From NCBI GenBank assembly GCA_034231615.1, contig CM067307.1:2700647-2764646 (forward strand): 64,000 nucleotides of DNA, written 5' to 3'. This DNA comes from Meghimatium bilineatum. Lineage: Eukaryota > Mollusca > Gastropoda > Stylommatophora > Philomycidae. A model generated the notes under the pieces. It saw only the letters and a program-made list of their open reading frames with translations. It did not search any database and was not told where the DNA came from. Both the position numbers and the translations under genes were made by a program. This document shows, piece after piece, positions 11,262 through 49,740 of the stretch (position 1 is the stretch's first letter; each line of letters opens with the position of its first letter).

Positions 11262-13432
11262 TCACATTTGTGTGAGAATATATCAACTACAATGTTCCAC
11301 ATTACCCTTACATTTGTGAGAGAATATCTCAACTACAATGTTCCACATTACCCTTACATTTGTGAGAGAATATCTCAACTACAATGTTCCACATTACCCT
11401 TACATTTGTGAGAGAATATCTCAACTACAATGTTCCACATTACCCTTACATTTGAGTGAGAATATCTGAACTACAATGTTCCACATTACCCTTACATTTG
11501 TGAGAGAATATCTCAACTACAATGTTCCACATTACCCTTACATTTGTGAGAGAATATCTCAACTACAATGTTCCACATTACCCTTACATTTGTGAGAGAA
11601 TATCTCAACTACAATGTTCCACATTACCCTTACATTTGTGAGAGAATATCTCAACTACAATGTTCCACATTACCCTTACATTTGAGAGAGAATATATCAA
11701 CTACAATGTTCCACATTACCCTTACATTTGAGTGAGAATATCTGAACTACAATGTTCCACATTACCCTTACATTTGTGAGAGAATATCTGAACTACAATG
11801 TTCCACATTACCCTTACATTTGAGAGAGAATATCTGAACTACAATGTTCCACATTACCCTTACATTTGAGTGAGAATATCTGAACTACAATGTTCCACAT
11901 TACCCTTACATTTGAGTGAGAATATCTGAACTACAATGTTCCACATTACCCTTACATTTGAGTGAGAATATCTGAACTACAATGTTCCACATTACCCTTA
12001 CATTTGAGAGAGAATATCTGAACTACAATGTTCCACATTACCCTTACATTTGAGAGAGAATATCTGAACTACAATGTTCCACATTACCCTTACATTTGAG
12101 AGAGAATATCTGAACTACAATGTTCCACATTACCCTTACATTTGAGAGAGAATATCTGAACTACAATGTTCCACATTACCCTTACATTTGAGAGAGAATA
12201 TCTGAACTACAATGTTCCACATTACCCTTACATTTGAGAGAGAATATCTGAACTACAATGTTCCACATTACCCTTACATTTGAGAGAGAATATCTGAACT
12301 ACAATGTTCCACATTACCCTTACATTTGAGTGAGAATATCTGAACTACAATGTTCCACATTACCCTTACATTTGAGTGAGAATATCTGAACTACAATGTT
12401 CCACATTACCCTTACATTTGAGTGAGAATATCTGAACTACAATGTTCCACATTACCCTTACATTTGAGAGAGAATATCTGAACAACAATGTTCCACATTA
12501 CCCTTACATTTGAGAGAGAATATCTGAACTACAATGTTCCACATTACCCTTACATTTGAGTGAGAATATCTGAACTACAATGTTCCACATTACCCTTACA
12601 TTTGAGTGAGAATATCTGAACTACAATGTTCCACATTACCCTTACATTTGAGTGAGAATATCTGAACTACAATGTTCCACATTACCCTTACATTTGAGTG
12701 AGAATATCTGAACTACAATGTTCCACATTACCCTTACATTTGAGAGAGAATATCTGAACAACAATGTTCTACATTATCCTTACATTTGAGTGAGAATATC
12801 TGAACTACAATGTTCCACATTACCCTTACATTTGAGTGAGAATATCTGAACTACAATGTTCCACATTACCCTTACATTTGAGAGAGAATATCTGAACTAC
12901 AATGTTCCACATTACCCTTACATTTGAGAGAGAATATCTGAACTACAATGTTCTACATTACCCTTACATTTGAGAGAGAATATCTGAACAACAATGTTCT
13001 ACATTATCCTTACATTTGAGTGAGAATATCTGAACTACAATGTTCCACATTACCCTTACATTTGAGAGAGAATATCTGAACTACAATGTTCCACATTACC
13101 CTTACATTTGAGAGAGAATATCTGAACTACAATGTTCCACATTACCCTTACATTTGAGAGAGAATATCTGAACTACAATGTTCCACATTACCCTTACATT
13201 TGAGAGAGAATATCTGAACTACAATGTTCCACATTACCCTTACATTTGAGTGAGAATATCTGAACTACAATGTTCCACATTACCCTTAAATTTGAGTGAG
13301 AATATCTGAACTACAATGTTCTACATTACCCTTACATTTGAGTGAGAATATCTGAACTACAATGTTCTACATTACCCTTACACTTGAGAGAGAATATATC
13401 AACTACAATGTTCCACATTACCCTTACATTTG
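11262..13432. repeat. 46-bp satellite array, about 47 copies
   Basis: Head-to-tail 46-bp units share 'ACAATGTTCCACATTACCC' and TTACATTTGAG.GAGAATATCTGAACT. The first nine or so copies are mainly a TGTGAGAG/ATCTCAACT subtype. Later copies are GAGAGAG or GAGTGAG with ATCTGAACT, so subtypes are spatially sorted, as expected from local unequal exchange. The last 12 or so copies (from about 12891) are also present at the start of each later composite unit. Confidence 0.95.
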
Positions 13433-13488
13433 CTGACATCTGAATAGTTACCTGAACCAATATATGTTCCATACTGAATAAAGCGTGT

Positions 13489-14376
13489 AGAAATACAGGA
13501 GTCCAATGGTTAGCCAGACTATTCACAATAGCTTGGTCAGAAAGAAAATTACCAGATGAATGGCAAAAATCTGTAATTGTACCACTATTGAAAAACAAAG
13601 GTAATAAGAGAGAGTGTGAATCATATAGAGGCATCTCCTTGTTAAGCCGCACAGGTAAAATCTACGCAAAAATAATAGAACAAAGAATGCGATACATTGC
13701 AGAACTACAGTTGAGCCCCTCTCAGTTTGGCTTCAGTAGGGGAGCAAGCTGTACAGACGCACTTTTCACACTGAGACAACTGAGTGAAAAAGCAATCGAA
13801 TACAATAAAGATTTTAACACAGTATTTGTAGACAAGGAAAAGGCATTCGACAGAGTAGATAGAAACATTCTATGGGAAACCTTAGAAATGTATAACATCA
13901 GAGGACAACTGTTAGATAACATAAAATTGATACATCAAAAATGCCAAAGCTCAGTAAGAACAACAGATGGAATGACTGAACCTTTTGAAACAAGATCTGG
14001 AGTAAGACAAGGATGCCTACTTTCACCCCTACTTTTCAACATATACATGGTCAGAATAATAAAAGAAGCTCATATTAACAAAGAGGAAAACATTGCAAAT
14101 AAACCTGATGAAGAACTTAATAATGAAATCAATGAACTATTATTTGCTGATGATCAAAGTTTAATATACAAAGATGAGGAAACTTTACAAAAGCACATCA
14201 ATGCATTGTTGTTAGCATGTCAGAAGTACAACATGAAAATTAATGTACAAAAAACAGAAGTTATGAAAATTAGCAAGTCTTCAACACCAATGAATATAAC
14301 AATAGATAACACCAAAGTGAAACAAGCCAAAGAATTTAAATATCTAGGCAGCATTTTTCCGAAGATGGAAGACTAG
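13489..14376 (+). pseudogene. LINE RT domain, unit copy 1
   Basis: The first catalytic motif FVDKEKAFDRVD, SGVRQGCLLSPLLFNIYM and the active site FADDQ are present (residues 80-91, 137-155 and 186-190 counted from 13588). The frame ends at 'YLGSIFPKMED' because a T run at 14354-14358 is one base short. With one more T it reads on as SEDGRLDREIETTYQ into the next frame. All four unit copies share the frameshift, so it predates the amplification. No N-terminal endonuclease is present. Confidence 0.85.
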
Positions 14377-14414
14377 ACAGAGAAATAGAAACAACGTACC
14401 AGAAAGAAAACACA

Positions 14415-14939
14415 GTGACTTACCAACTTTCACCATTACTTCTTCATCCAAAGATCAAGATGGAAATTAAAAAACAAATAATATCTACAATTTTTATACC
14501 AACACTGTGCTACCAATGTCAAACATGGTCTTTAACAGCTTCACAGCAAATAAAAATTGTCACATGTGAAATGAATTGTCTGAGGAAAGCTGCAATGGTT
14601 ACAAAACTAGATCAAATAAGAAATGAAGAAATTAGGAAAAGAGTTGGTATCGAACATATTGAGAGACAGCAAGTAAAATGGTTCAGTCACCTTATGAGAA
14701 TGAAGCCAAACCAAATACCAATAAGAGCATATAATACAAGAATATCAGGGCGTGAGACCAAAGGTAGACCAAGAAAACGGTGGATAGAAAACATTAAGTT
14801 AACCTTGAACAAACATGGACTAAATGCAACCTCGGCGACACATCTGGCCATGAAACGACAGCTTAAGATACTACCCCTACTACGCTTAACGACAAGTGTG
14901 AATGCGATCAACAATCATTCACCTGGGGATAGACAATAG
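14415..14939 (+). pseudogene. LINE RT thumb and C-terminus, unit copy 1
   Basis: This frame gives IFIPTLCYQCQTWSLTASQQ, CLRKAAMVTKLDQIRNEEIRKR, EHIERQQVKWFSHLMRM and GRPRKRWIENIKLTLNKHGL. Four residues (IISC) expected before EHIERQQ are missing: a 12-bp deletion relative to copy 2 and to the paralogue at 52809-53240. It is shared with copies 3 and 4. Confidence 0.85.
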
Positions 14940-14965
14940 ACTGAATGAACCTGTATTTGCCTGTA

Positions 14966-15000
14966 TCTGAGAGAATATCTGAACTACAATATATATTCCA
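14966..15000. repeat. 46-bp satellite remnant after the LINE
   Basis: 'GAGAGAATATCTGAACTACA' followed by ATATATATTCCACATT is one decayed satellite unit on the far side of the LINE, evidence that the LINE landed inside the array. The equivalents lie near 24003, 32860 and 41597. Confidence 0.7.
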
Positions 15001-15239
15001 CATTGATGTTACAACCATTCATAATTGAAAGCATGCTTGAACTGAAGCTTGTCCATACCAAGTAACAATTTATTGTATCAATTGAGATCGAGTTTTGAAC
15101 ATTAACTGTTCCATATATCTGAGAGACATTCTCGTGACAAAACAATATGCTTTCACAAGGAGCACAGCCATAAACTGAGTGTCAATAATACTACGATAAA
15201 GAAATGTGTATACTCAGATCCTGCCCTATAAGGAACCTG

Positions 15240-15480
15240 AACATACAGTATCCCACTGAGTCATGGAAGACTCCCATAGAGCTTTCATTATAGTGTTGTT
15301 TCCTCTGGCCAAAATGTCTGCCTCAACGTTTCATGCACACTTTTGAAGTATATGTTTGGCACTCTGTGCTGCCTGTCCACATGTACACATGGCAGTGTTG
15401 CCAATCTTGAACTTTGTATACATGTGACTGCGTATCAACAATGTTAGAACCAGTTTGTATCATCGTTTGTATCTGAGATA
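15240..15480 (-). pseudogene. Inverted I-clade LINE 3' end, unit copy 1
   Basis: The minus strand is closely similar to 4630-4790 of the I-clade LINE ('CAGTCACATGTATACAAAGT' and the Cys-rich segment through GCCAGAGGAAACAACACT). Only the C-terminal Cys/His part and the 3' end are present. The 66-codon minus-strand open frame here is in a different frame from the LINE protein. Confidence 0.8.
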
Positions 15481-16128
15481 GTGACGATCCCTGATCCCTC
15501 ACACCAACCCTCGTGTATGTCAATACCAGTGTTGTGTGAATTATTGTGATTTCGGGAATAATTTGTAAGAACGATCATAGAAATGGCTGAATTCCTGAAA
15601 CTGAGATGTATAATAAGAACATAACAATAGAAGAGAGAGAAATTAAAGTTTTATTTTTGAATAAAAATTAATAAATTCGCATTCATCGAGGAAGTGAATA
15701 TTGTAAACACATCGGAGAGCAGTTACCCAACATCTAGTTAGCTTAATAAATGTTTCTGTGTGCATGTCTTTTTTCTTATGACAGAATCGAAGAAAGAATA
15801 GAGAACCCAGGGAGGTTCCTGACGATTAAACAGATAAAAGGGTTTTTCCTTTTCATTGAATTAAAGTAATCATTTGGTAAGAACAAATGAATTGTATTTT
15901 TGTTATTGTTGATATGATAGAACATCATTTTTTAAAATTGAAAATTTTTTATTGTTTTTTTGTTTCAATAAACAGAACTTATCTGTGAATACAGGAAATT
16001 GTTTTCACATTATTTCAGTTTTATATTAACAAATTAGCTTGTATTGGGTTCTAAGTTCGGATTGATATCACCAGCCACAACCGAAGAGACAATAATCCTA
16101 TTGGAGGAACCTTAAGAGATACAAGAAC
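15481..16128. other. AT-rich non-coding stretch, unit copy 1
   Basis: No coding similarity is seen. It contains A/T runs near 15930-15965. Confidence 0.5.
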
Positions 16129-16374
16129 CACTATACTATACTATTATACTATACCACTATACTATACCACTATACTATACCACTATACTATACCACTATA
16201 CTATACCACTATACTATACCACTATACTATACCACTATACTATACCACTATACTATACCACTATACTATACCACTATACTATACCATTATACTATACCAC
16301 TATACTATACCACTATACTATACCATTATACTATACCACTATACTATACCCACTATACTATACCCACTATACGA
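16129..16374. repeat. 13-bp minisatellite, unit copy 1
   Basis: About 19 copies of ACCACTATACTAT with a few T-for-C variants and two 14-bp units at the right end. Confidence 0.95.
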
Positions 16375-16730
16375 TCAAAACGCATATTGCTGGAAAAGGT
16401 TCATACATGCCATACACAGGATCGAGAATACAGGATAGAAAGAAATATAAATATCTCATTAATCTATTTTACATCTATGCTTATTGTTACCTAGGTTACT
16501 GTGTAAACACATACGTCATTTCATTGTATGTATTATTTCTCCAATTATTATCTTCATTTATTATATATCTCCATCTGAATTCATCTATCTCTCCTATCAC
16601 TCGCTCTCTATCTGTCTGACTTTCTCTATCTCATTCATGTGATGTTTGTTGTTTCTATTACACAAGAGAAAATATGATAGTTGTATATGGGTGTTATTAC
16701 AGTAAAAATGTGTGCATGACATTATGATAC
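16375..16730. other. Spacer between 13-bp and 58-bp arrays, unit copy 1
   Basis: A 70-codon open frame (16407-16619) exists, but it is hydrophobic, low in complexity and unrecognised. I do not call it a gene. Short CTCTATCT-like runs lie near 16585-16630. Confidence 0.45.
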
Positions 16731-17890
16731 ATGTCTTACCGTACAGACATGACAGACCATGAGTAACATAACTAAAACATGAGAGAAATGTCTTACCGTA
16801 CTGACATGACAGAGCCATGAGTAACATAACTAAAACCTGAGAGAAATGTCTTACCGTACTGACATGACAGAGCCATGAGTAACATAACTAAAACATGAGA
16901 GAAATGTCTTACCGTACTGACATGACAGAGCCATGAGTAACATAAAATGAATCTGAGAGAAATGTCTTACCGTACTGACATGACAGAGCCATGAGTAACA
17001 TAACTAAAACATGAGAGAAATGTCTTACCGTACTGACATGACAGAGCCATGAGTAACATAACTAAAACATGAGAGAAATGTCTTACCGTACTGACATGAC
17101 AGAGCCATGAGTAACATAACTAAAACATGAGAGAAATGTCTTACCGTACTGACATGACAGAGCCATGAGTAACATAACTAAAACCTGAGAGAAATGTCTT
17201 ACCGTACTGACATGACAGAGCCATGAGTAACATAACTAAAACATGAGAGAAATGTCTTACCGTACTGACATGACAGAGCCATGAGTAACATAGATTGAGC
17301 CTGAGAGAAATGTCTTACCGTACTGACATGACAGAGCCATGAGTAACATAACTAAAACATGAGAGAAATGTCTTACCGTACTGACATGACAGAGCCATGA
17401 GTAACATAACTAAAACATGAGAGAAATGTCTTACCGTACTGACATGACAGAGCCATGAGTAACATAACTAAAACATGAGAGAAATGTCTTACCGTACTGA
17501 CATGACAGAGCCATGAGTAACATAACTAAAACCTGAGAGAAATGTCTTACCGTACTGACATGACAGAGCCATGAGTAACATAACTAAAACATGAGAGAAA
17601 TGTCTTACCGTACTGACATGACAGAGCCATGAGTAACATAGATTGAGCCTGAGAGAAATGTCTTACCGTACTGACATGACAGAGCCATGAGTAACATAAC
17701 TAAAACATGAGAGAAATGTCTTACCGTACTGACATGACAGAGCCATGAGTAACATAACTAAAACATGAGAGAAATGTCTTACCGTACTGACATGACAGAG
17801 TCATGAGTAACATAAGTAAAACCTGAGAGAAATGTCTTACCGTACTGACATGACAGAGCCATGAGTAACATAACTAAAACCTGAGAAATG
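16731..17890. repeat. 58-bp minisatellite, 20 copies, unit copy 1
   Basis: The unit contains 'ATGTCTTACCGTACTGACAT' followed by GACAGAGCCATGAGTAACATAACTAAAACATGAGAGAA. Variants with GATTGAGCC or AATGAATC at the unit end are placed irregularly. Five units fewer are present in the other three composite copies. Confidence 0.95.
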
Positions 17891-17980
17891 AAATAGAAAT
17901 ATAAACATTTCGTAGTTTATCTATGCTGTAAGTGATTGTTAGAAAAAAACATTAAATTTAAATTATAATTTGTGTTTATA

Positions 17981-18425
17981 GATATTGGTAACACGTGGAT
18001 ATTGGTAACACATGGATATTGGTAACACATGGATATTGGTAACATACAGATATTGCTAACACATGGATATTGGTAACACATGGATATTGGTAACACGTGG
18101 ATATTGGTAACACATAGATATTGGTAACACGTGGATATTAGTACCACTTGGATATTGGTAACACATAGATATTGGTAACACATAGATATTGGTAACACAT
18201 AGATATTGGTAACACATAGATATTGGTAACACGTGGATATTAGTACCACTTGGATATTGGTAACACATAGATATTGGTAACACGTGGATATTAGTACCAC
18301 ATGGATATTGGTAACACATAGATATTGGTAACACATAGATATTGGTAACACATAGATATTGGTAACACATAGATATTGGTAACACGTGGATATTAGTACC
18401 ACTTGGATATTGGTAACACATAGAT
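17981..18425. repeat. 17-bp minisatellite, about 26 copies, unit copy 1
   Basis: The unit is GATATTGGTAACACATA, with ACACGTG and TAGTACCACTTG variants arranged in a recurring order, suggesting a higher-order pattern of several units. The long open frames across it (Tyr/Cys/Asn-rich) are by-products of the repeat. Confidence 0.95.
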
Positions 18426-18513
18426 GTCTGACACAACCTACAACTTACTAGGACAGTGACTGCGACACCAAATTTATATACTTTTATATGTCTGATACAA
18501 TCAGCAACTGACT

Positions 18514-19060
18514 GAAGTGCTTTATATTGAAGTGTTTTATACTGACCTGTTTTCTAGTGAAGTGTTTTATATTGAATAGTTTTATACTGCGCTGTTTTCT
18601 AGTGAAGTGTTTTATATTGAATAGTTTTATACTGAAGTGTTTTATATTGAATAGTTTTATACTGAAGTGTTTTATATTGAATTGTTTTATACTGAAGTGT
18701 TTTATATTGAATTGTTTTATACTGAAGTGTTTTATATTGAAGTGTTTTATTCTGAAGTGTTTTATATTGAATTGTTTTATACTGAAGTGTTTTATATTGA
18801 ATAGTTTTATACTGAAGTGTTTTATATTGAATTGTTTTATACTGAAGTGTTTTATATTGAATTGTTTTATACTGAAGTGTTTTATATTGAATAGTTTTAT
18901 ACTGAAGTGTTTCATATTGAATTGTTTTATACTGAGCTGTTTCATACTGAAGAGTTTTATATTGAAGTGTTTTATTCTGAAGTGTTTTATATTGAATAGT
19001 TTCATACTGAAGAGTTTTATATTGAAGTGTTTTATTCTGAAGTGTTTTATATTGAAGTGT
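18514..19060. repeat. 30-bp (2 x 15 bp) minisatellite, unit copy 1
   Basis: Alternating 15-bp half-units GAAGTGTTTTATATT and GAATTGTTTTATACT, about 36 in all. Because 15 is a multiple of three and stops are absent in several frames, long frames are open on both strands. They are not genes. Confidence 0.95.
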
Positions 19061-20764
19061 AACAGTAACCATTCTTTATCAGCCTTTAGAAATGACGAAT
19101 ATTTTTATTTGTTGACAAAATATTGGACAGTTTAAGATATTTGACGAGACCAGTGGTCCACGTAATAATTATTTGAGTGGAGCTCAGTGAGGAAGACAAG
19201 TAGAGTAATCGGCCGTTTTTTGTGTTTGTTGTTAGTAAGCCTGAACGGTCATGGTTTTTGCCAGGACAAGTAGACACCAAAAAGTTAAGTTAAGGAGTTT
19301 TCTAATGTGATTGAAAAATAAAATGAACACTAGATAATATTGTAGAAAGATAGGAGAAAGTAGATGAATATAACTCAGGAAAAAAACGTGAAAGAAAAGA
19401 TACCCGTGAATTGTGAGAAAAGGGAAGAAAGAACTGATACATTGATTTGAATTCAGTTGGTAGTTGAAGCTGACTAGCGTAAACATCTAACCTAGTAAAG
19501 TAAAATATTTATGCTACATGGCACGTCAGATCAGAATTTCTAGATCCAAGAGTCGGAGCAGACACAGGTTTACAAGTAATTTCAGAAGTTAATTTTCCAC
19601 AAGTCAAGTAAATGGAATCATCGAAGAAAACCTCCAACAACATTCTACTGTATAACAACCATCAGTAGGGAATCTGAGATAAGCAACGTATAGGAAGACA
19701 GTGTTGAATTTGTGGGATAAAAGTAGTTATATATTTTGTACTGTAGTAAGAAGTTGTAATTCTGTCAAAGTTAAGTGGAAACATTTGTAGAGTAGTTAAA
19801 AGTCTTAAGCAAGGATCAGATAGTCACGGATGAGTGAATCAATGTACGAAATAATTAACCAACATGTGTTAACAGACTTGGGTCAAATTCCGGTGAAGCA
19901 ATTTTGAAGATGTGTCAAATTGAGTTAGGCAGTTTGATTGTAAACACTAGAGGCGAGATGTGTACTAATTGAAGTGATATTAGAATTGTAGTTAGTAGGC
20001 TACAAACATAGGAAGAAACGTGAACTAGTAAATGATATATATTAATAAGTTTCATTGAAAAGTTGATGAAGTAAGTGGAGTTTTTCAATTGTCAATTGTA
20101 TTTTGATTACAATGTACCCACTTATTTATGAAGTCAACTACAGCGAGTTAAAGTGAAAGATAGACATTTATCACTTTTTGAGAATATAGAGGACTGACTA
20201 TTTAGTTTGCAACCAATGTGATCAGTATTGTAGAACTAGGACAATGAGTGTTTATAAGTGAACTTGAAAGTACTAATGTCTTTACAAAGAAGAATCTTAA
20301 CATTGAATGTCAAGAACGAATAGAATTTTAGGAAATATAAATTATAGGTCTACAAATAGACATTTTTATATAAAAAGGTAACCTAATTGTATTGTGATCT
20401 ATCAAATAGAACTAGAGAAAGTGTGTTTAACTTAAGGATGTGTAGCTGTCTGAAAAATTACCAAATATTAATCTGATAAAGTTGTGATATAATTTAAAAG
20501 CGAAAAGGTTTGTAATCTACGTTTTCATGCAGTTGCATTGACGTCCTTAATGTACTCACAACTAGGTTATCATCTAGGTCTAAAAATAGACATTTTTGTA
20601 AAACAAAGTAACCTGATTGTATTGTGTGTAGATTTCCAAGACGGAGAGCGTATAGTTTCTTTAGAACGGTGATCACAGTCTTTGCACTTTTACGAAAAAA
20701 GACACGATATATTTTGCAAACCACTTGCACAGGATGTCTTTGACATAACTCTTGCATGAAACAT
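19061..20764. other. Non-coding spacer, unit copy 1
   Basis: About 1.7 kb with no recognised protein. It holds an imperfect direct repeat of about 50 bp (20347-20396 and 20577-20627, sharing ATAGACATTTTT.TA.AA and TAACCT.ATTGTATTGTG). A minus-strand frame of 87 codons at 20494-20757 has no recognisable family. Confidence 0.5.
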
Positions 20765-20852
20765 TTTATTCTGTAAAACCTGACATAACATCCACATGCA
20801 ACATTCTATTAGAAGATGTGTATGACACAACTATCAAAACTTTGTATTAGAC
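20765..20852. repeat. Degenerate 40-bp repeat flanking the hAT, unit copy 1
   Basis: About two decayed copies of the repeat seen at 50146-50275 (GTGTATGACACAACTATCA). The last one ends in TATTAGAC, directly abutting the hAT end. Confidence 0.65.
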
Positions 20853-21909
20853 CAAGGGTGGGGAAACTACGGCCCCCGGGCCACATGCGACCGCCATTGG
20901 ATATTATGCAGCCCTCAAACACAATTTTAAATAAACGAAAAATCGTCACAATTGATTTTTTCCCCATTAATATTATGCAGAAATCCATTAGAATTTTAAT
21001 TTGACTTTCTTTTATATTAAATATACAATATTTGTTTTCCAATTTTACATTATTTAAATATTGATATATATATATATATATATCGTCAATGAAATTTGAC
21101 TACGTTTAATATGAGTGTTTAGCATTGAGTAATTTATTATACTAGAATTTACGTAATTTTAGTGGCTGAATGTTTCTCAATGACTATAAGTACCCGAACG
21201 ATATAAATTTATAAAGGTTGAAAATTGCCTTTCAAATTATAATTAGTTATTTTTAACTTTTAAGCATTATGTTGGGATGTATGTTTAGTTTATATTAAAA
21301 AGATGTTTCATACAAAATAGAATATCGCTAAAAGCTGTTATAATTAATAATACATCGTTACAACAATAATGTATCGTTAGACATGACCCCCCAACCTTAT
21401 ATCCTACGAATGGAATGCGCAAAAACTCGATTTGCAATCATTTAAGATACGTTGTTCCTGGGGAATTCCTGGTGTGTTTTAATAACTATCACGTTTGTAG
21501 TTTCCATTCATGAATTTCCGTATTTATATTGCAACCGAGTTTTCTAAATCTAAATAATTATATTCGCGCTGCCGGAAGCGCATTTGTTTTTTAATTAATT
21601 TTGCAACATTTTAAGATATTTTTATTATAATGAGTGCATCCAAAAAACGTAAGATTGAAGAAGAGTGTCGAGTTTCCAAAGACAAATGGAGTACCAAATA
21701 TTGTTTTATGCAAGTTGGCAACAAATCTGTTTGCTTGCTGTGTCACGCATCAGTGGCTGTTTTTAAAGAAAATAACTTAAAAAGAAATTACCAGACAAAA
21801 CATCCCATTTTCGGACACAATCTAACATCTGAAGAAAGGAAATGAAAATGAATGAAATTGGTAAAAAGTTTAGAGAAACAACAAACTGTGTTTATAAAAC
21901 AGTCTTCAA
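20853..21909 (+). mobile_element. hAT transposon 5' part, truncated, unit copy 1
   Basis: It begins with the terminal repeat CAAGGGTGGGGAAACTACGG and runs through the 5' untranslated region to the first 90 or so transposase codons. It is cut at 'CAGTCTTCAA', where satellite of the next unit begins. It contains a TA run near 21062. Confidence 0.85.
21630..21845 (+). pseudogene. hAT transposase N-terminus (GTF2IRD2/Charlie8-like), copy 1
   Basis: 71 codons open with MSASKKRKIEEECRVSKDKW and a zinc-finger-like CLLCHASVAVFKENN..RNYQTKH (Cys-x2-Cys...His-x4-His type). This resembles the N-terminus of Charlie8-type hAT transposases, domesticated in vertebrates as GTF2IRD2. The frame ends at TGA after EERK. 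Related coding sequence (KSLEKQQTVFIKQS) continues in another frame until the unit junction. Confidence 0.8.
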
Positions 21910-21915
21910 CTACAA
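21910..21915. other. Unit junction 1-2, 6-bp filler
   Basis: CTACAA lies between the hAT breakpoint (TCTTCAA) and the satellite (TCTGAACTACAATG). It equals a piece of the satellite, so it may be satellite-derived. The same bases occur at 30779-30784 and 39516-39521. Confidence 0.85.
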
Positions 21916-22457
21916 TCTGAACTACAATGTTCCACATTACCCTTACATTTGAGAGAGAATATCTGAACTACAATGTTCTACATTACCCTTACATTTGAGA
22001 GAGAATATCTGAACAACAATGTTCTACATTATCCTTACATTTGAGTGAGAATATCTGAACTACAATGTTCCACATTACCCTTACATTTGAGAGAGAATAT
22101 CTGAACTACAATGTTCCACATTACCCTTACATTTGAGAGAGAATATCTGAACTACAATGTTCCACATTACCCTTACATTTGAGAGAGAATATCTGAACTA
22201 CAATGTTCCACATTACCCTTACATTTGAGAGAGAATATCTGAACTACAATGTTCCACATTACCCTTACATTTGAGTGAGAATATCTGAACTACAATGTTC
22301 CACATTACCCTTAAATTTGAGTGAGAATATCTGAACTACAATGTTCTACATTACCCTTACATTTGAGTGAGAATATCTGAACTACAATGTTCTACATTAC
22401 CCTTACACTTGAGAGAGAATATATCAACTACAATGTTCCACATTACCCTTACATTTG
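21916..22457. repeat. 46-bp satellite, about 12 copies, unit copy 2
   Basis: Equivalent to the last 12 copies of the long array (12891-13432), with the same order of variants, including the AACAACAATGTTCTACATTATCC unit. Confidence 0.95.
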
Positions 22458-23997
22458 CTGACATCTGAATAGTTACCTGAACCAATATATGTTCCATACT
22501 GAATAAAGCGTGTAGAAATACAGGAGTCCAATGGTTAGCCAGACTATTCACAATAGCTTGGTCAGAAAGAAAATTACCAGATGAATGGCAAAAATCTGTA
22601 ATTGTACCACTATTGAAAAACAAAGGTAATAAGAGAGAGTGTGAATCATATAGAGGCATCTCCTTGTTAAGCCGCACAGGTAAAATCTACGCAAAAATAA
22701 TAGAACAAAGAATGCGATACATTGCAGAACTACAGTTGAGCCCCTCTCAGTTTGGCTTCAGTAGGGGAGCAAGCTGTACAGACGCACTTTTCACACTGAG
22801 ACAACTGAGTGAAAAAGCAATCGAATACAATAAAGATTTTAACACAGTATTTGTAGACAAGGAAAAGGCATTCGACAGAGTAGATAGAAACATTCTATGG
22901 GAAACCTTAGAAATGTATAACATCAGAGGACAACTGTTAGATAACATAAAATTGATACATCAAAAATGCCAAAGCTCAGTAAGAACAACAGATGGAATGA
23001 CTGAACCTTTTGAAACAAGATCTGGAGTAAGACAAGGATGCCTACTTTCACCCCTACTTTTCAACATATACATGGTCAGAATAATAAAAGAAGCTCATAT
23101 TAACAAAGAGGAAAACATTGCAAATAAACCTGATGAAGAACTTAATAATGAAATCAATGAACTATTATTTGCTGATGATCAAAGTTTAATATACAAAGAT
23201 GAGGAAACTTTACAAAAGCACATCAATGCATTGTTGTTAGCATGTCAGAAGTACAACATGAAAATTAATGTACAAAAAACAGAAGTTATGAAAATTAGCA
23301 AGTCTTCAACACCAATGAATATAACAATAGATAACACCAAAGTGAAACAAGCCAAAGAATTTAAATATCTAGGCAGCATTTTTCCGAAGATGGAAGACTA
23401 GACAGAGAAATAGAAACAACGTACCAGAAAGAAAACACAGTGACTTACCAACTTTCACCATTACTTCTTCATCCAAAGATCAAGATGGAAATTAAAAAAC
23501 AAATAATATCTACAATTTTTATACCAACACTGTGCTACCAATGTCAAACATGGTCTTTAACAGCTTCACAGCAAATAAAAATTGTCACATGTGAAATGAA
23601 TTGTCTGAGGAAAGCTGCAATGGTTACAAAACTAGATCAAATAAGAAATGAAGAAATTAGGAAAAGAGTTGGTATAATATCATGTATCGAACATATTGAG
23701 AGACAGCAAGTAAAATGGTTCAGTCACCTTATGAGAATGAAGCCAAACCAAATACCAATAAGAGCATATAATACAAGAATATCAGGGCGTGAGACCAAAG
23801 GTAGACCAAGAAAACGGTGGATAGAAAACATTAAGTTAACCTTGAACAAACATGGACTAAATGCAACCTCGGCGACACATCTGGCCATGAAACGACAGCT
23901 TAAGATACTACCCCTACTACGCTTAACGACAAGTGTGAATGCGATCAACAATCATTCACCTGGGGATAGACAATAGACTGAATGAACCTGTATTTGC
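22458..23997 (+). mobile_element. RTE-like LINE 3' fragment, unit copy 2
   Basis: Same insertion as in copy 1. The RT frame is 22613-23401 (readable from about 22514), then a frameshift, then 23440-23976. Here the C-terminal frame keeps GIISC before IEHIERQQ, encoded by 12 bp near 23675-23686. Alignment with paralogues in the window shows this is the ancestral state. Confidence 0.85.
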
Positions 23998-24276
23998 CTG
24001 TATCTGAGAGAATATCTGAACTACAATATATATTCCACATTGATGTTACAACCATTCATAATTGAAAGCATGCTTGAACTGAAGCTTGTCCATACCAAGT
24101 AACAATTTATTGTATCAATTGAGATCGAGTTTTGAACATTAACTGTTCCATATATCTGAGAGACATTCTCGTGACAAAACAATATGCTTTCACAAGGAGC
24201 ACAGCCATAAACTGAGTGTCAATAATACTACGATAAAGAAATGTGTATACTCAGATCCTGCCCTATAAGGAACCTG

Positions 24277-24517
24277 AACATACAGTATCCCACTGAGTCA
24301 TGGAAGACTCCCATAGAGCTTTCATTATAGTGTTGTTTCCTCTGGCCAAAATGTCTGCCTCAACGTTTCATGCACACTTTTGAAGTATATGTTTGGCACT
24401 CTGTGCTGCCTGTCCACATGTACACATGGCAGTGTTGCCAATCTTGAACTTTGTATACATGTGACTGCGTATCAACAATGTTAGAACCAGTTTGTATCAT
24501 CGTTTGTATCTGAGATA
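24277..24517 (-). pseudogene. Inverted I-clade LINE 3' end, unit copy 2
   Basis: Same fragment as 15240-15480. Confidence 0.8.
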
Positions 24518-30778: not shown

Positions 30779-30784
30779 CTACAA

Positions 30785-36029: not shown

Positions 36030-36117
36030 GTCTGACACAACCTACAACTTACTAGGACAGTGACTGCGACACCAAATTTATATACTTTTATATGTCTGAT
36101 ACAATCAGCAACTGACT

Positions 36118-38368: not shown

Positions 38369-38456
38369 TTTATTCTGTAAAACCTGACATAACATCCACA
38401 TGCAACATTCTATTAGAAGATGTGTATGACACAACTATCAAAACTTTGTATTAGAC
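38369..38456. repeat. Degenerate 40-bp repeat, unit copy 3
   Basis: Same as 20765-20852. Confidence 0.6.
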
Positions 38457-39515
38457 CAAGGGTGGGGAAACTACGGCCCCCGGGCCACATGCGACCGCCA
38501 TTGGATATTATGCAGCCCTCAAACACAATTTTAAATAAACGAAAAATCGTCACAATTGATTTTTTCCCCATTAATATTATGCAGAAATCCATTAGAATTT
38601 TAATTTGACTTTCTTTTATATTAAATATACAATATTTGTTTTCCAATTTTACATTATTTAAATATTGATATATATATATATATATATATCGTCAATGAAA
38701 TTTGACTACGTTTAATATGAGTGTTTAGCATTGAGTAATTTATTATACTAGAATTTACGTAATTTTAGTGGCTGAATGTTTCTCAATGACTATAAGTACC
38801 CGAACGATATAAATTTATAAAGGTTGAAAATTGCCTTTCAAATTATAATTAGTTATTTTTAACTTTTAAGCATTATGTTGGGATGTATGTTTAGTTTATA
38901 TTAAAAAGATGTTTCATACAAAATAGAATATCGCTAAAAGCTGTTATAATTAATAATACATCGTTACAACAATAATGTATCGTTAGACATGACCCCCCAA
39001 CCTTATATCCTACGAATGGAATGCGCAAAAACTCGATTTGCAATCATTTAAGATACGTTGTTCCTGGGGAATTCCTGGTGTGTTTTAATAACTATCACGT
39101 TTGTAGTTTCCATTCATGAATTTCCGTATTTATATTGCAACCGAGTTTTCTAAATCTAAATAATTATATTCGCGCTGCCGGAAGCGCATTTGTTTTTTAA
39201 TTAATTTTGCAACATTTTAAGATATTTTTATTATAATGAGTGCATCCAAAAAACGTAAGATTGAAGAAGAGTGTCGAGTTTCCAAAGACAAATGGAGTAC
39301 CAAATATTGTTTTATGCAAGTTGGCAACAAATCTGTTTGCTTGCTGTGTCACGCATCAGTGGCTGTTTTTAAAGAAAATAACTTAAAAAGAAATTACCAG
39401 ACAAAACATCCCATTTTCGGACACAATCTAACATCTGAAGAAAGGAAATGAAAATGAATGAAATTGGTAAAATGTTTAGAGAAACAACAAACTGTGTTTA
39501 TAAAACAGTCTTCAA
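38457..39515 (+). mobile_element. hAT 5' part, truncated, unit copy 3
   Basis: Same fragment as 20853-21909. The transposase N-terminal frame is 39236-39451. Confidence 0.85.
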
Positions 39516-39521
39516 CTACAA

Positions 39522-40063
39522 TCTGAACTACAATGTTCCACATTACCCTTACATTTGAGAGAGAATATCTGAACTACAATGTTCTACATTACCCTTACAT
39601 TTGAGAGAGAATATCTGAACAACAATGTTCTACATTATCCTTACATTTGAGTGAGAATATCTGAACTACAATGTTCCACATTACCCTTACATTTGAGAGA
39701 GAATATCTGAACTACAATGTTCCACATTACCCTTACATTTGAGAGAGAATATCTGAACTACAATGTTCCACATTACCCTTACATTTGAGAGAGAATATCT
39801 GAACTACAATGTTCCACATTACCCTTACATTTGAGAGAGAATATCTGAACTACAATGTTCCACATTACCCTTACATTTGAGTGAGAATATCTGAACTACA
39901 ATGTTCCACATTACCCTTAAATTTGAGTGAGAATATCTGAACTACAATGTTCTACATTACCCTTACATTTGAGTGAGAATATCTGAACTACAATGTTCTA
40001 CATTACCCTTACACTTGAGAGAGAATATATCAACTACAATGTTCCACATTACCCTTACATTTG
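39522..40063. repeat. 46-bp satellite, about 12 copies, unit copy 4
   Basis: Same order of variants as at 21916-22457. Confidence 0.95.
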
Positions 40064-41591
40064 CTGACATCTGAATAGTTACCTGAACCAATATATGTTC
40101 CATACTGAATAAAGCGTGTAGAAATACAGGAGTCCAATGGTTAGCCAGACTATTCACAATAGCTTGGTCAGAAAGAAAATTACCAGATGAATGGCAAAAA
40201 TCTGTAATTGTACCACTATTGAAAAACAAAGGTAATAAGAGAGAGTGTGAATCATATAGAGGCATCTCCTTGTTAAGCCGCACAGGTAAAATCTACGCAA
40301 AAATAATAGAACAAAGAATGCGATACATTGCAGAACTACAGTTGAGCCCCTCTCAGTTTGGCTTCAGTAGGGGAGCAAGCTGTACAGACGCACTTTTCAC
40401 ACTGAGACAACTGAGTGAAAAAGCAATCGAATACAATAAAGATTTTAACACAGTATTTGTAGACAAGGAAAAGGCATTCGACAGAGTAGATAGAAACATT
40501 CTATGGGAAACCTTAGAAATGTATAACATCAGAGGACAACTGTTAGATAACATAAAATTGATACATCAAAAATGCCAAAGCTCAGTAAGAACAACAGATG
40601 GAATGACTGAACCTTTTGAAACAAGATCTGGAGTAAGACAAGGATGCCTACTTTCACCCCTACTTTTCAACATATACATGGTCAGAATAATAAAAGAAGC
40701 TCATATTAACAAAGAGGAAAACATTGCAAATAAACCTGATGAAGAACTTAATAATGAAATCAATGAACTATTATTTGCTGATGATCAAAGTTTAATATAC
40801 AAAGATGAGGAAACTTTACAAAAGCACATCAATGCATTGTTGTTAGCATGTCAGAAGTACAACATGAAAATTAATGTACAAAAAACAGAAGTTATGAAAA
40901 TTAGCAAGTCTTCAACACCAATGAATATAACAATAGATAACACCAAAGTGAAACAAGCCAAAGAATTTAAATATCTAGGCAGCATTTTTCCGAAGATGGA
41001 AGACTAGACAGAGAAATAGAAACAACGTACCAGAAAGAAAACACAGTGACTTACCAACTTTCACCATTACTTCTTCATCCAAAGATCAAGATGGAAATTA
41101 AAAAACAAATAATATCTACAATTTTTATACCAACACTGTGCTACCAATGTCAAACATGGTCTTTAACAGCTTCACAGCAAATAAAAATTGTCACATGTGA
41201 AATGAATTGTCTGAGGAAAGCTGCAATGGTTACAAAACTAGATCAAATAAGAAATGAAGAAATTAGGAAAAGAGTTGGTATCGAACATATTGAGAGACAG
41301 CAAGTAAAATGGTTCAGTCACCTTATGAGAATGAAGCCAAACCAAATACCAATAAGAGCATATAATACAAGAATATCAGGGCGTGAGACCAAAGGTAGAC
41401 CAAGAAAACGGTGGATAGAAAACATTAAGTTAACCTTGAACAAACATGGACTAAATGCAACCTCGGCGACACATCTGGCCATGAAACGACAGCTTAAGAT
41501 ACTACCCCTACTACGCTTAACGACAAGTGTGAATGCGATCAACAATCATTCACCTGGGGATAGACAATAGACTGAATGAACCTGTATTTGC
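40064..41591 (+). mobile_element. RTE-like LINE 3' fragment, unit copy 4
   Basis: RT frame 40219-41007 and C-terminal frame 41046-41570, with the shared frameshift and the 12-bp deletion. Confidence 0.85.
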
Positions 41592-41870
41592 CTGTATCTG
41601 AGAGAATGTCTGAACTACAATATATATTCCACATTGATGTTACAACCATTCATAATTGAAAGCATGCTTGAACTGAAGCTTGTCCATACCAAGTAACAAT
41701 TTATTGTATCAATTGAGATCGAGTTTTGAACATTAACTGTTCCATATATCTGAGAGACATTCTCGTGACAAAACAATATGCTTTCACAAGGAGCACAGCC
41801 ATAAACTGAGTGTCAATAATACTACGATAAAGAAATGTGTATACTCAGATCCTGCCCTATAAGGAACCTG

Positions 41871-42111
41871 AACATACAGTATCCCACTGAGTCATGGAAG
41901 ACTCCCATAGAGCTTTCATTATAGTGTTGTTTCCTCTGGCCAAAATGTCTGCCTCAACGTTTCATGCACACTTTTGAAGTATATGTTTGGCACTCTGTGC
42001 TGCCTGTCCACATGTACACATGGCAGTGTTGCCAATCTTGAACTTTGTATACATGTGACTGCGTATCAACAATGTTAGAACCAGTTTGTATCATCGTTTG
42101 TATCTGAGATA
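41871..42111 (-). pseudogene. Inverted I-clade LINE 3' end, unit copy 4
   Basis: Same fragment as 15240-15480. Confidence 0.8.
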
Positions 42112-42759
42112 GTGACGATCCCTGATCCCTCACACCAACCCTCGTGTATGTCAATACCAGTGTTGTGTGAATTATTGTGATTTCGGGAATAATTTGTAAG
42201 AACGATCATAGAAATGGCTGAATTCCTGAAACTGAGATGTATAATAAGAACATAACAATAGAAGAGAGAGAAATTAAAGTTTTATTTTTGAATAAAAATT
42301 AATAAATTCGCATTCATCGAGGAAGTGAATATTGTAAACACATCGGAGAGCAGTTACCCAACATCTAGTTAGCTTAATAAATGTTTCTGTGTGCATGTCT
42401 TTTTTCTTATGACAGAATCGAAGAAAGAATAGAGAACCCAGGGAGGTTCCTGACGATTAAACAGATAAAAGGGTTTTTCCTTTTCATTGAATTAAAGTAA
42501 TCATTTGGTAAGAACAAATGAATTGTATTTTTGTTATTGTTGATATGATAGAACATCATTTTTTAAAATTGAAAATTTTTTATTGTTTTTTTGTTTCAAT
42601 AAACAGAACTTATCTGTGAATACAGGAAATTGTTTTCACATTATTTCAGTTTTATATTAACAAATTAGCTTGTATTGGGTTCTAAGTTCGGATTGATATC
42701 ACCAGCCACAACCGAAGAGACAATAATCCTATTGGAGGAACCTTAAGAGATACAAGAAC
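42112..42759. other. AT-rich non-coding stretch, unit copy 4
   Basis: Equivalent of 15481-16128. Nothing recognised. Confidence 0.5.
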
Positions 42760-43005
42760 CACTATACTATACTATTATACTATACCACTATACTATACCA
42801 CTATACTATACCACTATACTATACCACTATACTATACCACTATACTATACCACTATACTATACCACTATACTATACCACTATACTATACCACTATACTAT
42901 ACCACTATACTATACCATTATACTATACCACTATACTATACCACTATACTATACCATTATACTATACCACTATACTATACCCACTATACTATACCCACTA
43001 TACGA
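42760..43005. repeat. 13-bp minisatellite, unit copy 4
   Basis: Same array and length as in copy 1. Confidence 0.95.
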
Positions 43006-43361
43006 TCAAAACGCATATTGCTGGAAAAGGTTCATACATGCCATACACAGGATCGAGAATACAGGATAGAAAGAAATATAAATATCTCATTAATCTATTT
43101 TACATCTATGCTTATTGTTACCTAGGTTACTGTGTAAACACATACGTCATTTCATTGTATGTATTATTTCTCCAATTATTATCTTCATTTATTATATATC
43201 TCCATCTGAATTCATCTATCTCTCCTATCACTCGCTCTCTATCTGTCTGACTTTCTCTATCTCATTCATGTGATGTTTGTTGTTTCTATTACACAAGAGA
43301 AAATATGATAGTTGTATATGGGTGTTATTACAGTAAAAATGTGTGCATGACATTATGATAC
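43006..43361. other. Spacer, unit copy 4
   Basis: Equivalent of 16375-16730. No supportable gene. Confidence 0.45.
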
Positions 43362-44231
43362 ATGTCTTACCGTACAGACATGACAGACCATGAGTAACAT
43401 AACTAAAACATGAGAGAAATGTCTTACCGTACTGACATGACAGAGCCATGAGTAACATAACTAAAACCTGAGAGAAATGTCTTACCGTACTGACATGACA
43501 GAGCCATGAGTAACATAACTAAAACATGAGAGAAATGTCTTACCGTACTGACATGACAGAGCCATGAGTAACATAAAATGAATCTGAGAGAAATGTCTTA
43601 CCGTACTGACATGACAGAGCCATGAGTAACATAACTAAAACATGAGAGAAATGTCTTACCGTACTGACATGACAGAGCCATGAGTAACATAACTAAAACA
43701 TGAGAGAAATGTCTTACCGTACTGACATGACAGAGCCATGAGTAACATAACTAAAACATGAGAGAAATGTCTTACCGTACTGACATGACAGAGCCATGAG
43801 TAACATAGATTGAGCCTGAGAGAAATGTCTTACCGTACTGACATGACAGAGCCATGAGTAACATAACTAAAACCTGAGAGAAATGTCTTACCGTACTGAC
43901 ATGACAGAGCCATGAGTAACATAACTAAAACATGAGAGAAATGTCTTACCGTACTGACATGACAGAGCCATGAGTAACATAGATTGAGCCTGAGAGAAAT
44001 GTCTTACCGTACTGACATGACAGAGCCATGAGTAACATAACTAAAACATGAGAGAAATGTCTTACCGTACTGACATGACAGAGCCATGAGTAACATAACT
44101 AAAACATGAGAGAAATGTCTTACCGTACTGACATGACAGAGTCATGAGTAACATAAGTAAAACCTGAGAGAAATGTCTTACCGTACTGACATGACAGAGC
44201 CATGAGTAACATAACTAAAACCTGAGAAATG
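43362..44231. repeat. 58-bp minisatellite, 15 copies, unit copy 4
   Basis: Same length and variant order as in copies 2 and 3. Confidence 0.95.
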
Positions 44232-44321
44232 AAATAGAAATATAAACATTTCGTAGTTTATCTATGCTGTAAGTGATTGTTAGAAAAAAACATTAAATTT
44301 AAATTATAATTTGTGTTTATA

Positions 44322-44766
44322 GATATTGGTAACACGTGGATATTGGTAACACATGGATATTGGTAACACATGGATATTGGTAACATACAGATATTGCTAA
44401 CACATGGATATTGGTAACACATGGATATTGGTAACACGTGGATATTGGTAACACATAGATATTGGTAACACGTTGATATTAGTACCACTTGGATATTGGT
44501 AACACATAGATATTGGTAACACATAGATATTGGTAACACATAGATATTGGTAACACATAGATATTGGTAACACGTGGATATTAGTACCACTTGGATATTG
44601 GTAACACATAGATATTGGTAACACGTGGATATTAGTACCACATGGATATTGGTAACACATAGATATTGGTAACACATAGATATTGGTAACACATAGATAT
44701 TGGTAACACATAGATATTGGTAACACGTGGATATTAGTACCACTTGGATATTGGTAACACATAGAT
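44322..44766. repeat. 17-bp minisatellite, unit copy 4
   Basis: Carries the CACGTTGATATTAG variant shared only with copy 3. Confidence 0.95.
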
Positions 44767-44854
44767 GTCTGACACAACCTACAACTTACTAGGACAGTGA
44801 CTGCGACACCAAATTTATATACTTTTATATGTCTGATACAATCAGCAACTGACT

Positions 44855-45401
44855 GAAGTGCTTTATATTGAAGTGTTTTATACTGACCTGTTTTCTAGTG
44901 AAGTGTTTTATATTGAATAGTTTTATACTGCGCTGTTTTCTAGTGAAGTGTTTTATATTGAATAGTTTTATACTGAAGTGTTTTATATTGAATAGTTTTA
45001 TACTGAAGTGTTTTATATTTAATTGTTTTATACTGAAGTGTTTTATATTGAATTGTTTTATACTGAAGTGTTTTATATTGAAGTGTTTTATTCTGAAGTG
45101 TTTTATATTGAATTGTTTTATACTGAAGTGTTTTATATTGAATAGTTTTATACTGAAGTGTTTTATATTGAATTGTTTTATACTGAAGTGTTTTATATTG
45201 AATTGTTTTATACTGAAGTGTTTTATATTGAATAGTTTTATACTGAAGTGTTTCATATTGAATTGTTTTATACTGAGCTGTTTCATACTGAAGAGTTTTA
45301 TATTGAAGTGTTTTATTCTGAAGTGTTTTATATTGAATAGTTTCATACTGAAGAGTTTTATATTGAAGTGTTTTATTCTGAAGTGTTTTATATTGAAGTG
45401 T
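44855..45401. repeat. 30-bp minisatellite, unit copy 4
   Basis: Same length as in copies 1 and 3. One private change (TATATTTAATTG) near 45020. Confidence 0.95.
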
Positions 45402-47105
45402 AACAGTAACCATTCTTTATCAGCCTTTAGAAATGACGAATATTTTTATTTGTTGACAAAATATTGGACAGTTTAAGATATTTGACGAGACCAGTGGTCC
45501 ACGTAATAATTATTTGAGTGGAGCTCAGTGAGGAAGACAAGTAGAGTAATCGGCCGTTTTTTGTGTTTGTTGTTAGTAAGCCTGAACGGTCATGGTTTTT
45601 GCCAGGACAAGTAGACACCAAAAAGTTAAGTTAAGGAGTTTTCTAATGTGATTGAAAAATAAAATGAACACTAGATAATATTGTAGAAAGATAGGAGAAA
45701 GTAGATGAATATAACTCAGGAAAAAAACGTGAAAGAAAAGATACCCGTGGATTGTGAAGAAAGGGAACAAAGAACTGATACATTGATTTGAATTCAGTTG
45801 GTAGTTGAAGCTGACTAGCGTAAACATCTAACCTAGTAGAGTAAAATATTTATGCTACATGGCACGTCAGATTAGAATTTCTAGATCCAAGAGTCGGAGC
45901 AGACACAGGTTTACAAGTAATTTCAGAAGTTAATTTTCCACAAGTCAAGTAAATGGAATCATCGAAGAAAACCTCCAACAACATTCTACTGTATAACAAC
46001 CATCAGTAGGGAATCTGAGATAAGCAACGTATAGGAAGACAGTGTTGAATTTGTGGGATAAAAGTAGTTATATATTTTGTACTGTAGTAAGAAGTTGTAA
46101 TTCTGTCAAAGTTAAGTGGAAACATTTGTAGAGTAGTTAAAAGTCTTAAGCAAGGATCAGATAGTCACGGATGAGTGAATCAATGTACGAAATAATTAAC
46201 CAACATGTGTTAACAGACTTGGGTCAAATTCCGGTGAAGCAATTTTGAAGATGTGTCAAATTGAGTTAGGCAGTTTGATTGTAAACACTAGAGGCGAGAT
46301 GTGTACTAATTGAAGTGATATTAGAATTGTAGTTAGTAGGCTACAAACATAGGAAGAAACGTGAACTAGTAAATGATATATATTAATAAGTTTCATTGAA
46401 AAGTTGATGAAGTAAGTGGAGTTTTTCAATTGTCAATTGTATTTTGATTACAATGTACCCACTTATTTATGAAGTCAACTACAGCGAGTTAAAGTGAAAG
46501 ATAGACATTTATCACTTTTTGAGAATATAGAGGACTGACTATTTAGTTTGCAACCAATGTGATCAGTATTGTAGAACTAGGACAATGAGTGTTTATAAGT
46601 GAACTTGAAAGTACTAATGTCTTTACAAAGAAGAATCTTAACATTGAATGTCAAGAACGAATAGAATTTTAGGAAATATAAATTATAGGTCTACAAATAG
46701 ACATTTTTATATAAAAAGGTAACCTAATTGTATTGTGATCTATCAAATAGAACTAGAGAAAGTGTGTTTAACTTAAGGATGTGTAGCTGTCTGAAAAATT
46801 ACCAAATATTAATCTGATAAAGTTGTGATATAATTTAAAAGCGAAAAGGTTTGTAATCTACGTTTTCATGCAGTTGCATTGACGTCCTTAATGTACTCAC
46901 AACTAGGTTATCATCTAGGTCTAAAAATAGACATTTTTGTAAAACAAAGTAACCTGATTGTATTGTGTGTAGATTTCCAAGACGGAGAGCGTATAGTTTC
47001 TTTAGAACGGTGATCACAGTCTTTGCACTTTTACGAAAAAAGACACGATATATTTTGCAAACCACTTGCACAGGATGTCTTTGACATAACTCTTGCATGA
47101 AACAT
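45402..47105. other. Non-coding spacer, unit copy 4
   Basis: Equivalent of 19061-20764, nearly identical to copy 3. Confidence 0.5.
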
Positions 47106-47193
47106 TTTATTCTGTAAAACCTGACATAACATCCACATGCAACATTCTATTAGAAGATGTGTATGACACAACTATCAAAACTTTGTATTAGAC
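47106..47193. repeat. Degenerate 40-bp repeat left of the complete hAT
   Basis: The last eight bases, TATTAGAC (47186-47193), are the left target-site copy of the hAT. Confidence 0.65.
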
Positions 47194-47970
47194 CAAGGGT
47201 GGGGAAACTACGGCCCCCGGGCCACATGCGACCGCCATTGGATATTATGCAGCCCTCAAACACAATTTTAAATAAACGAAAAATCGTCACAATTGATTTT
47301 TTCCCCATTAATATTATGCAGAAATCCATTAGAATTTTAATTTGACTTTCTTTTATATTAAATATACAATATTTGTTTTCCAATTTTACATTATTTAAAT
47401 ATTGATATATATATATATATATATCGTCAATGAAATTTGACTACGTTTAATATGAGTGTTTAGCATTGAGTAATTTATTATACTAGAATTTACGTAATTT
47501 TAGTGGCTGAATGTTTCTCAATGACTATAAGTACCCGAACGATATAAATTTATAAAGGTTGAAAATTGCCTTTCAAATTATAATTAGTTATTTTTAACTT
47601 TTAAGCATTATGTTGGGATGTATGTTTAGTTTATATTAAAAAGATGTTTCATACAAAATAGAATATCGCTAAAAGCTGTTATAATTAATAATACATCGTT
47701 ACAACAATAATGTATCGTTAGACATGACCCCCCAACCTTATATCCTACGAATGGAATGCGCAAAAACTCGATTTGCAATCATTTAAGATACGTTGTTCCT
47801 GGGGAATTCCTGGTGTGTTTTAATAACTATCACGTTTGTAGTTTCCATTCATGAATTTCCGTATTTATATTGCAACCGAGTTTTCTAAATCTAAATAATT
47901 ATATTCGCGCTGCCGGAAGCGCATTTGTTTTTTAATTAATTTTGCAACATTTTAAGATATTTTTATTATA

Positions 47971-49740
47971 ATGAGTGCATCCAAAAAACGTAAGATTGAA
48001 GAAGAGTGTCGAGTTTCCAAAGACAAATGGAGTACCAAATATTGTTTTATGCAAGTTGGCAACAAATCTGTTTGCTTGCTGTGTCACGCATCAGTGGCTG
48101 TTTTTAAAGAAAATAACTTAAAAAGAAATTACCAGACAAAACATCCCATTTTCGGACACAATCTAACATCTGAAGAAAGGAAATGAAAATGAATGAAATT
48201 GGTAAAAAGTTTAGAGAAACAACAAACTGTGTTTATAAAACAGTCTTCAATTCAAGATGCCGTAATAGAGGCCAGTTTGGTGTTGTCACACAAAAAAGTG
48301 AAATACAACAAACCATATTCTGATGGTGAATTTATTAAGGAATGTTTACTACATGCAACAAACATTCTGTGTCCATTACAAAACAACAAAATTGATAGTA
48401 TTACATTATCCAGAAGAACTGTGGTCAGACGTGTTGAAAAGATAAGTGAGATTTGACCTTTCAACTTCAAGATGCAAGTAATCATGTTTTTGTGGTACTC
48501 TCTTGCATTCGACGAGAGTACTGATGTACAGGATACTGCTCAATTATTAGTTTTTATACGTGGAATAAACAATTCTTTTAAACTCTTTGAAGAGTTACTG
48601 AGTGTTGATTCGATCAAACTGGCCTCGATATATTAAATACTGTTAGTAGCTGTATTGAAAGAGCTGGGTTAATGTTGAACAAGATGGCCAGTATTACAAC
48701 TGATGGTGCTCGTGCTTTAACTTTTTTTAAATATAGGACTGATAAAGTTGATCAATTATAGGATTAAGTCAGAATATCCTGACAAAGTTATATTACCACT
48801 TCACTGTGTGATTCATCAGGAAAGTTTGTGTAAATCTGTTTTAAAAATTAAGCATGTTATTGACGGACTTGTCAGTGTCATAAACCTCATCAGATCAAGA
48901 GGACTCAATCACAGGCAGTTCAGAGCATTACTAGACGATCTAGAAACTGAACATTCTGATGTCCTGTACCACACTACAGTTAGATGGGTTGAGTCTCGGA
49001 AAGGTTTTAAGGAGAGTATGGGATCTTAAAAAAATAATAATGTTTCTAGAGATGAATGGCATAGAATGTGACTTCAATGCTAACATTTTTGATGTAGAAT
49101 GGAAGCGTAACTTTATATTTGCAACTCAAATAATGGAAACGTTAAATGAACTGAATGTTAACCTTCAGGGCAATGGTTTGTTCGCACATAAAATGTATGT
49201 TTATGTAAAATCATTTCAAGCCAAACTCTCACTGTTTTCCAGACAAGCAAGTGAAAACATGTTTTGTCACTTCCCTTTGCTGAAACAAGAAACTATTTAT
49301 GATGAAATTTTAAAAAATCAAGCTCAGTTAGATGTATTGGTTGAAGAATTTGGAAGAAGATTCCAATATTTCAAGAACTTGGAGCAGCACTTCAATGTTA
49401 TCAGTTCTCTTCTCAGTGCAGAAGCTCATAAAGCCCCAGAGCATATACAGTTGGAGTTGCTTGAATTACAAGCCAATAATTACTTGAAGGAAAAATTTAT
49501 GTCTGAATATTTGTTGGATTTTTATGATTCTTTGCCTGAACAAGTTTTCCCAAACTTAAACAAAATTTGCAACTAAATTTATGTCTATATTTGGATCTAC
49601 ATATATTTGTTAACGGGCATTTTCTTGCTTAAAAATCAACAAATCTAAGAATATGTCTTTATTATCTGATTTAAACTTAAATGCAGTCATGCAAATTTCT
49701 ACAAGTAAACATGTTCCAGATTTCAAAGGAAATATAAAAT
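47971..49740 (+). pseudogene. hAT transposase pseudogene
   Basis: Pieces in order: the N-terminal zinc-finger segment (47971-48186); KSLEKQQTVFIKQSSIQDAV with CLLHATNILCP (48193-48456); SLAFDESTDVQDTAQLLVFI with the first catalytic Asp (about 48500-48560); MASITTDGARALT, second catalytic region (about 48684-48720); LPLHCVIHQESLC, SRGLNHRQFRALLDD and HTTVRWVE (48748-49000); and a helical region with NVNLQGNGLFAHKMYVYVKS (48959-49576). It ends with the C-terminal dimerisation-type segment (NMSLLSDLNLNAVMQIS, about 49650-49710). The match to GTF2IRD2-like/Charlie8 transposases is clear throughout. At least four frame changes or stops prevent activity. Confidence 0.85.

Follow-up and report, generated by a model that had tools for sequence, protein, structure and literature searches.

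A young low-copy tandem segmental duplication of repeat-rich DNA and its probable growth by unequal crossover

Introduction

Composite repeats of human telomere-to-telomere assemblies are tandem units made up of satellites, transposons and simple repeats. Macrosatellites are many-copy arrays whose copy number is variable between individuals. Human examples are D4Z4 (unit of 3.3 kb) and DXZ4 (3 kb, 12-100 copies), as given in an excerpt of PMC8122249. Tandem repeats can also be born from transposable elements, including tandem dimers and rolling-circle clusters, according to an excerpt of PMC9659126.

The founding step of long tandem arrays is usually lost to homogenisation. Here we describe a locus that retains, within 36 kb, the founding junction, the non-duplicated flanking sequence on either side and what is probably a product of array growth. 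A literature search of partial coverage returned nothing recognisable as this locus.

Array structure

The window (the whole stretch of DNA analysed, 64 kb in length) contains no N and is abundant in LINEs and minisatellites; because of this richness, its origin was taken as eukaryotic. Self-BLAST and Tandem Repeats Finder showed that 12890-48250 are occupied by four head-to-tail units (u1 to u4, Table 1), in agreement with the original prediction of four composite copies in direct orientation. In all four copies, the repeated block of ~9 kb consists of old repeats and decayed transposons. The units, 8.7-9.0 kb each, are adjacent direct copies longer than 1 kb with at least 90 percent identity, as required of a tandem segmental duplication, and sharing ~8.7 kb at such identity is far beyond chance. 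The left outer border of the array lies inside a 46-bp satellite that extends back to 11264, and the right outer border lies inside a hAT element that reaches 50145 only after u4.

Table 1. Coordinates of the repeat units and associated features in the window
Feature	Position	Strand	Remarks
Unit 1 (u1)	12890..21914	+	9025 bp; 58-bp minisatellite with 5 additional copies
Unit 2 (u2)	21915..30783	+	8869 bp; 30-bp minisatellite 120 bp longer; sole keeper of 12 bp of LINE
Unit 3 (u3)	30784..39520	+	8737 bp; mosaic, u4-like left and u2-like right
Unit 4 (u4)	39521..48250	+	8730 bp; sole unit continuing into the remaining hAT
46-bp satellite	11264..13432	+	47.2 copies; 35 full monomers left of u1
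LINE fragment, u1	13456..14939	+	two overlapping open frames; RVT_1 E 1e-35 in the first frame
Degenerate satellite monomer after LINE, u1	14967..15012	+	profile search, E 2.6e-5
13-bp minisatellite, u1	16127..16372	+	Tandem Repeats Finder
58-bp minisatellite, u1	16731..17886	+	
17-bp minisatellite, u1	17981..18425	+	
30-bp minisatellite, u1	18511..19060	+	
SNP cluster, u1	19121..19532		412 bp near the 30-bp minisatellite; 12 of 16 SNP sites
Five extra bases between hAT and satellite, u1/u2 junction	21910..21914	+	
Five extra bases, u2/u3 junction	30779..30783	+	same bases
Five extra bases, u3/u4 junction	39516..39520	+	same bases
hAT left target duplication	47186..47193	+	8 bp; one mismatch vs right copy
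hAT element	47194..50145	+	2952 bp; terminal inverted repeats; Spin-doc zinc finger PF18658 E 2.2e-7
hAT right target duplication	50146..50153	+	8 bp; inside the 40-bp minisatellite 50144-50264

Junctions between units

All three internal junctions have the same structure: the hAT sequence is interrupted at an identical position, there are five extra bases, and then the satellite resumes in the same phase. A 23-base junction string was found only at 21900, 30769 and 39506, and a string spanning the same point in undivided hAT only at 48241; that is, the joint of copy end and copy start is present three times and absent from the outer flanks, and the undivided hAT is present once. It had been claimed that the borders lie inside the hAT element and inside the 46-bp satellite, and that the array was born by segmental tandem duplication. 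Unit alignment and the junction string search bore out the former, and the shared junction and border positions support the latter.

Our best reading, to which we assign a probability of about 0.72, is a single non-homologous tandem duplication followed by growth through unequal crossover. One non-homologous event would have joined a break in the old hAT to a break in the satellite ~8.7 kb upstream, at the junction described above, with a direct tandem duplication as the outcome. Read together, the extra bases and those following them recur in the satellite a few bases further along, a look that is usual for microhomology-based joining or template switching; the founding joint may thus have been made by end joining or by template switching with microhomology. 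The element ends, the target duplication and the outer flanks all fit one ancestral single copy.

As every unit holds LINE and hAT parts, the unit itself might be a mobile element or a composite transposon. However, neither edge coincides with an element end (the right one lies 1057 bp within hAT and the left one within satellite), and a BLAST search of the window flanks found no other copy, its matches being limited to diverged LINE and minisatellite sequences and a single stretch of 161 bp. Since the edges do not coincide with element ends, this barely credible candidate was rejected.

Unit contents and order of events

In each unit, 11.8 copies of the 46-bp satellite are followed by a LINE fragment, a degenerate satellite monomer and a spacer, then by 13-, 58-, 17- and 30-bp minisatellites, another spacer, part of a 40-bp minisatellite and, as the right end, the first 1057 or 1059 bp of hAT. 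LINE fragment copies in the other units start at 22481, 31350 and 40087; the range in Table 1 is that of the open frames of the u1 copy, which was the copy scanned and which contains a reverse-transcriptase domain (RVT_1). Counterparts of the degenerate monomer occur at 24004, 32861 and 41598, and profile search gave E 2.6e-5 in u1 and u2 and 1e-4 in u3 and u4. With the array to its left and the degenerate monomer to its right, the LINE sits in satellite DNA. Its flanks have in common a diverged stretch of ~50 bp that could be variant satellite or an old duplication, and an exact target duplication was not found in these flanks. No LINE relatives were detected in a viral-contig scan. In addition, a second LINE is present on the minus strand at 8939-11264, with ~145 bp between the end of its open frame and the left edge of the 46-bp satellite, so that LINE fragments flank this satellite on both sides.

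The hAT element inserted in a 40-bp minisatellite, the remaining copies of which are at 50144-50264. Its short inverted ends are CAAGGGTGGG and CCCACCCCTG, and the two copies of its target duplication match at 7/8 bases. The first coding piece matches the Spin-doc zinc finger PF18658 (30.9 bits, cut-off 27.3); Pfam scans of four further pieces detected no transposase core domain, and the longest open piece had no sequence match in PDB. The open pieces are spread over several frames, implying that the element is decayed. Assignment to hAT rests on the element ends, the target duplication and a presumed resemblance of the element at 47194-50145 to hAT.

We found no gene or RNA gene as amplified cargo in the Rfam, ARAGORN and Pfam scans. 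Across the window, 0 Rfam matches reached gathering score and ARAGORN (bacterial setting) gave 0 tRNAs. Among 15 protein entries (the longer frames; 14 distinct, one region being entered twice), Pfam cut-offs were passed only by RVT_1, the Spin-doc zinc finger and DUF6451, the last of which we take to be associated with LINEs. No gene function is evident for the array.

Several other features were observed in the window. A 161-bp stretch of unit sequence at 41903-42063 matches the left flank at 4633-4778 on the opposite strand (85.7 percent match) and is perhaps a short dispersed element. An imperfect palindrome of ~400 bp at 58644-59045, with arm pairs 86-88 percent complementary and 24-158 bases apart, is perhaps a fold-back or miniature transposon. 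Nested inverted arms (79-92 percent complementary) extend over ~3.4 kb at 52243-55605 and enclose LINE-like sequence; they could be one element present twice in opposite directions. Finally, a 37-bp minisatellite of 38.2 copies at 61615-63000 has a strong strand bias (281 G vs 48 C).

The order of events had been thought to be directly readable, and much of it is. From the layout and the hAT target duplication, the satellite preceded the LINE, the 40-bp minisatellite preceded hAT, and both insertions preceded the duplication; the relative order of LINE and hAT escapes such a reading, since each lies in a different repeat. The hAT remainder is present only after u4 and the LINE is present in every unit, hence the duplication is younger than either insertion. 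In addition, hAT is decayed but the units differ by ~0.1 percent, suggesting that amplification was much younger than the hAT insertion. Probable exchange between units and some minisatellite length change came after the duplication.

Differences between units and array growth

Pairwise global alignment revealed 2 SNPs and a single 2-bp indel between u3 and u4, 8 SNPs and 2 indels between u2 and u3, 9 and 2 between u1 and u4, 9 and 3 between u1 and u3, 10 and 3 between u2 and u4, and 13 and 5 between u1 and u2. Multiple alignment gave 2 to 25 mismatches per pair, owing to different gap placement in the minisatellites. The 16 SNP sites comprise six private to u1, six private to u2, one private to u4 and three two-and-two splits, and the first 1761 bases show no difference between any of the units. 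Minisatellite lengths also vary, with five more copies of the 58-bp repeat in u1 and four more of the 30-bp repeat in u2. Minisatellites therefore also changed after the duplication; they would have gained or lost copies independently in the units, in directions that these length differences leave unpolarised.

Given how little separates u3 and u4, the unit number might be an assembly artefact, with fewer copies, allelic or collapsed reads laid out as four. However, the junction is novel sequence that no assembler would invent, which makes at least one tandem duplication likely real, and u1 and u2 have private length differences. We regard such an artefact as highly unlikely. An unlikely origin, too, is a segment that was circularised and reinserted at its original site in one step as a rolling-circle multimer, with a later gene conversion patchwork. 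It likewise predicts identical junctions, has been cited for other repeat clusters (in an excerpt of PMC9659126) and is not separated from stepwise growth by the final layout itself, but the private differences of u1 and u2 (SNPs and minisatellite lengths), set against the near identity of u3 and u4, favour stepwise growth.

The two-and-two splits divide the units in different ways. SNPs 14977 and 18133 group u1 with u2 and u3 with u4, whereas SNP 21867 and the length of an (AT)n tract at 21064 group u2 with u3 and u1 with u4. At 14977, u1 and u2 carry the base of the satellite consensus, which makes the u3/u4 base probably derived. In a four-combination test, 4/4 left-right site pairs showed all four combinations, the right side consisting of one SNP and the slippage-prone (AT)n; either exchange between units or repeated mutation is needed to account for this pattern.

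Growth of the tandem duplication by homology between units could have produced the observed mosaic. In a misaligned pairing of u4, the last unit, with u2 of the other chromatid, the left part of the former would have been joined to the right part of the latter; a crossover between 18133 and 21064 would yield u2, a mosaic and u4, which is the observed order. A single unequal crossover of this kind would create u3 and also lengthen the array, and the position of u3 between both supposed parents matches its prediction. Alternatively, repeated mutation or gene conversion may have generated the mosaic, as its right side comprises one SNP and a tract prone to slippage.

One difference does not fit simple stepwise growth. 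A 12-bp LINE segment at 23672 is present in u2 alone. A LINE at 52809-53237, related at 66.9 percent identity, aligns gap-free across it, and at this site a more distant LINE (8939-11119) is equal in protein length. As judged from these two LINEs, the segment is most likely ancestral, with a deletion shared by u1, u3 and u4. Stepwise growth in its simple form would then be insufficient, and a second exchange, a differing haplotype or repeated deletion would be needed; in the last case, two deletions would have occurred between 4-bp direct repeats.

The SNP sites are also unevenly distributed, most of them falling in a 412-bp cluster. None of 20000 random placements was equally clustered, and the same (0/20000) was observed after merging sites within 10 bp (7/11 sites in the cluster), for a cluster width that was picked after the data were seen. 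No donor for the cluster was found within the window, and conversion from unseen copies is possible. A bolder and rather doubtful idea is that the locus is a newborn macrosatellite, in which the founding scar, one unit added by crossover and a further haplotype exchange can be read, and in which turnover is driven by the 412-bp stretch, acting as a hot spot for exchange or conversion.

Comparison with known systems

The original prediction described the locus as a macrosatellite. The kilobase-scale tandem unit agrees with this label, which is nevertheless too broad for four copies at one place in one assembly. D4Z4 and DXZ4 likewise have kilobase units in head-to-tail arrays, with the present array having four copies of an 8.7-9.0 kb unit, and macrosatellite remains an analogy for this locus. 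In the case of tandem repeats born from transposable elements, transposon sequence enters a tandem repeat as it does here. However, the transposons in this array are passengers: hAT was cut mid-element, and its own ends are absent from the junction. The composite repeats known from human telomere-to-telomere assemblies are alike in the make-up of the tandem unit.

Signs of exchange between units, which were lacking in the original prediction, and a plausible crossover product are what the present analysis adds. Should the number of units differ among individuals, the locus would offer a natural test of the way in which arrays of kilobase units arise and expand.

With described low-copy tandem segmental duplications, the array has in common the direct orientation, a non-homologous founding junction, high identity and, probably, exchange between copies. 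Its cargo differs, being repeats and dead transposons in which no gene was found; this is no difference in kind. The repeat-rich DNA of this locus forms a tandem segmental duplication that is young, low in copy number and probably recombining: the process is ordinary and known, and the example is clear.
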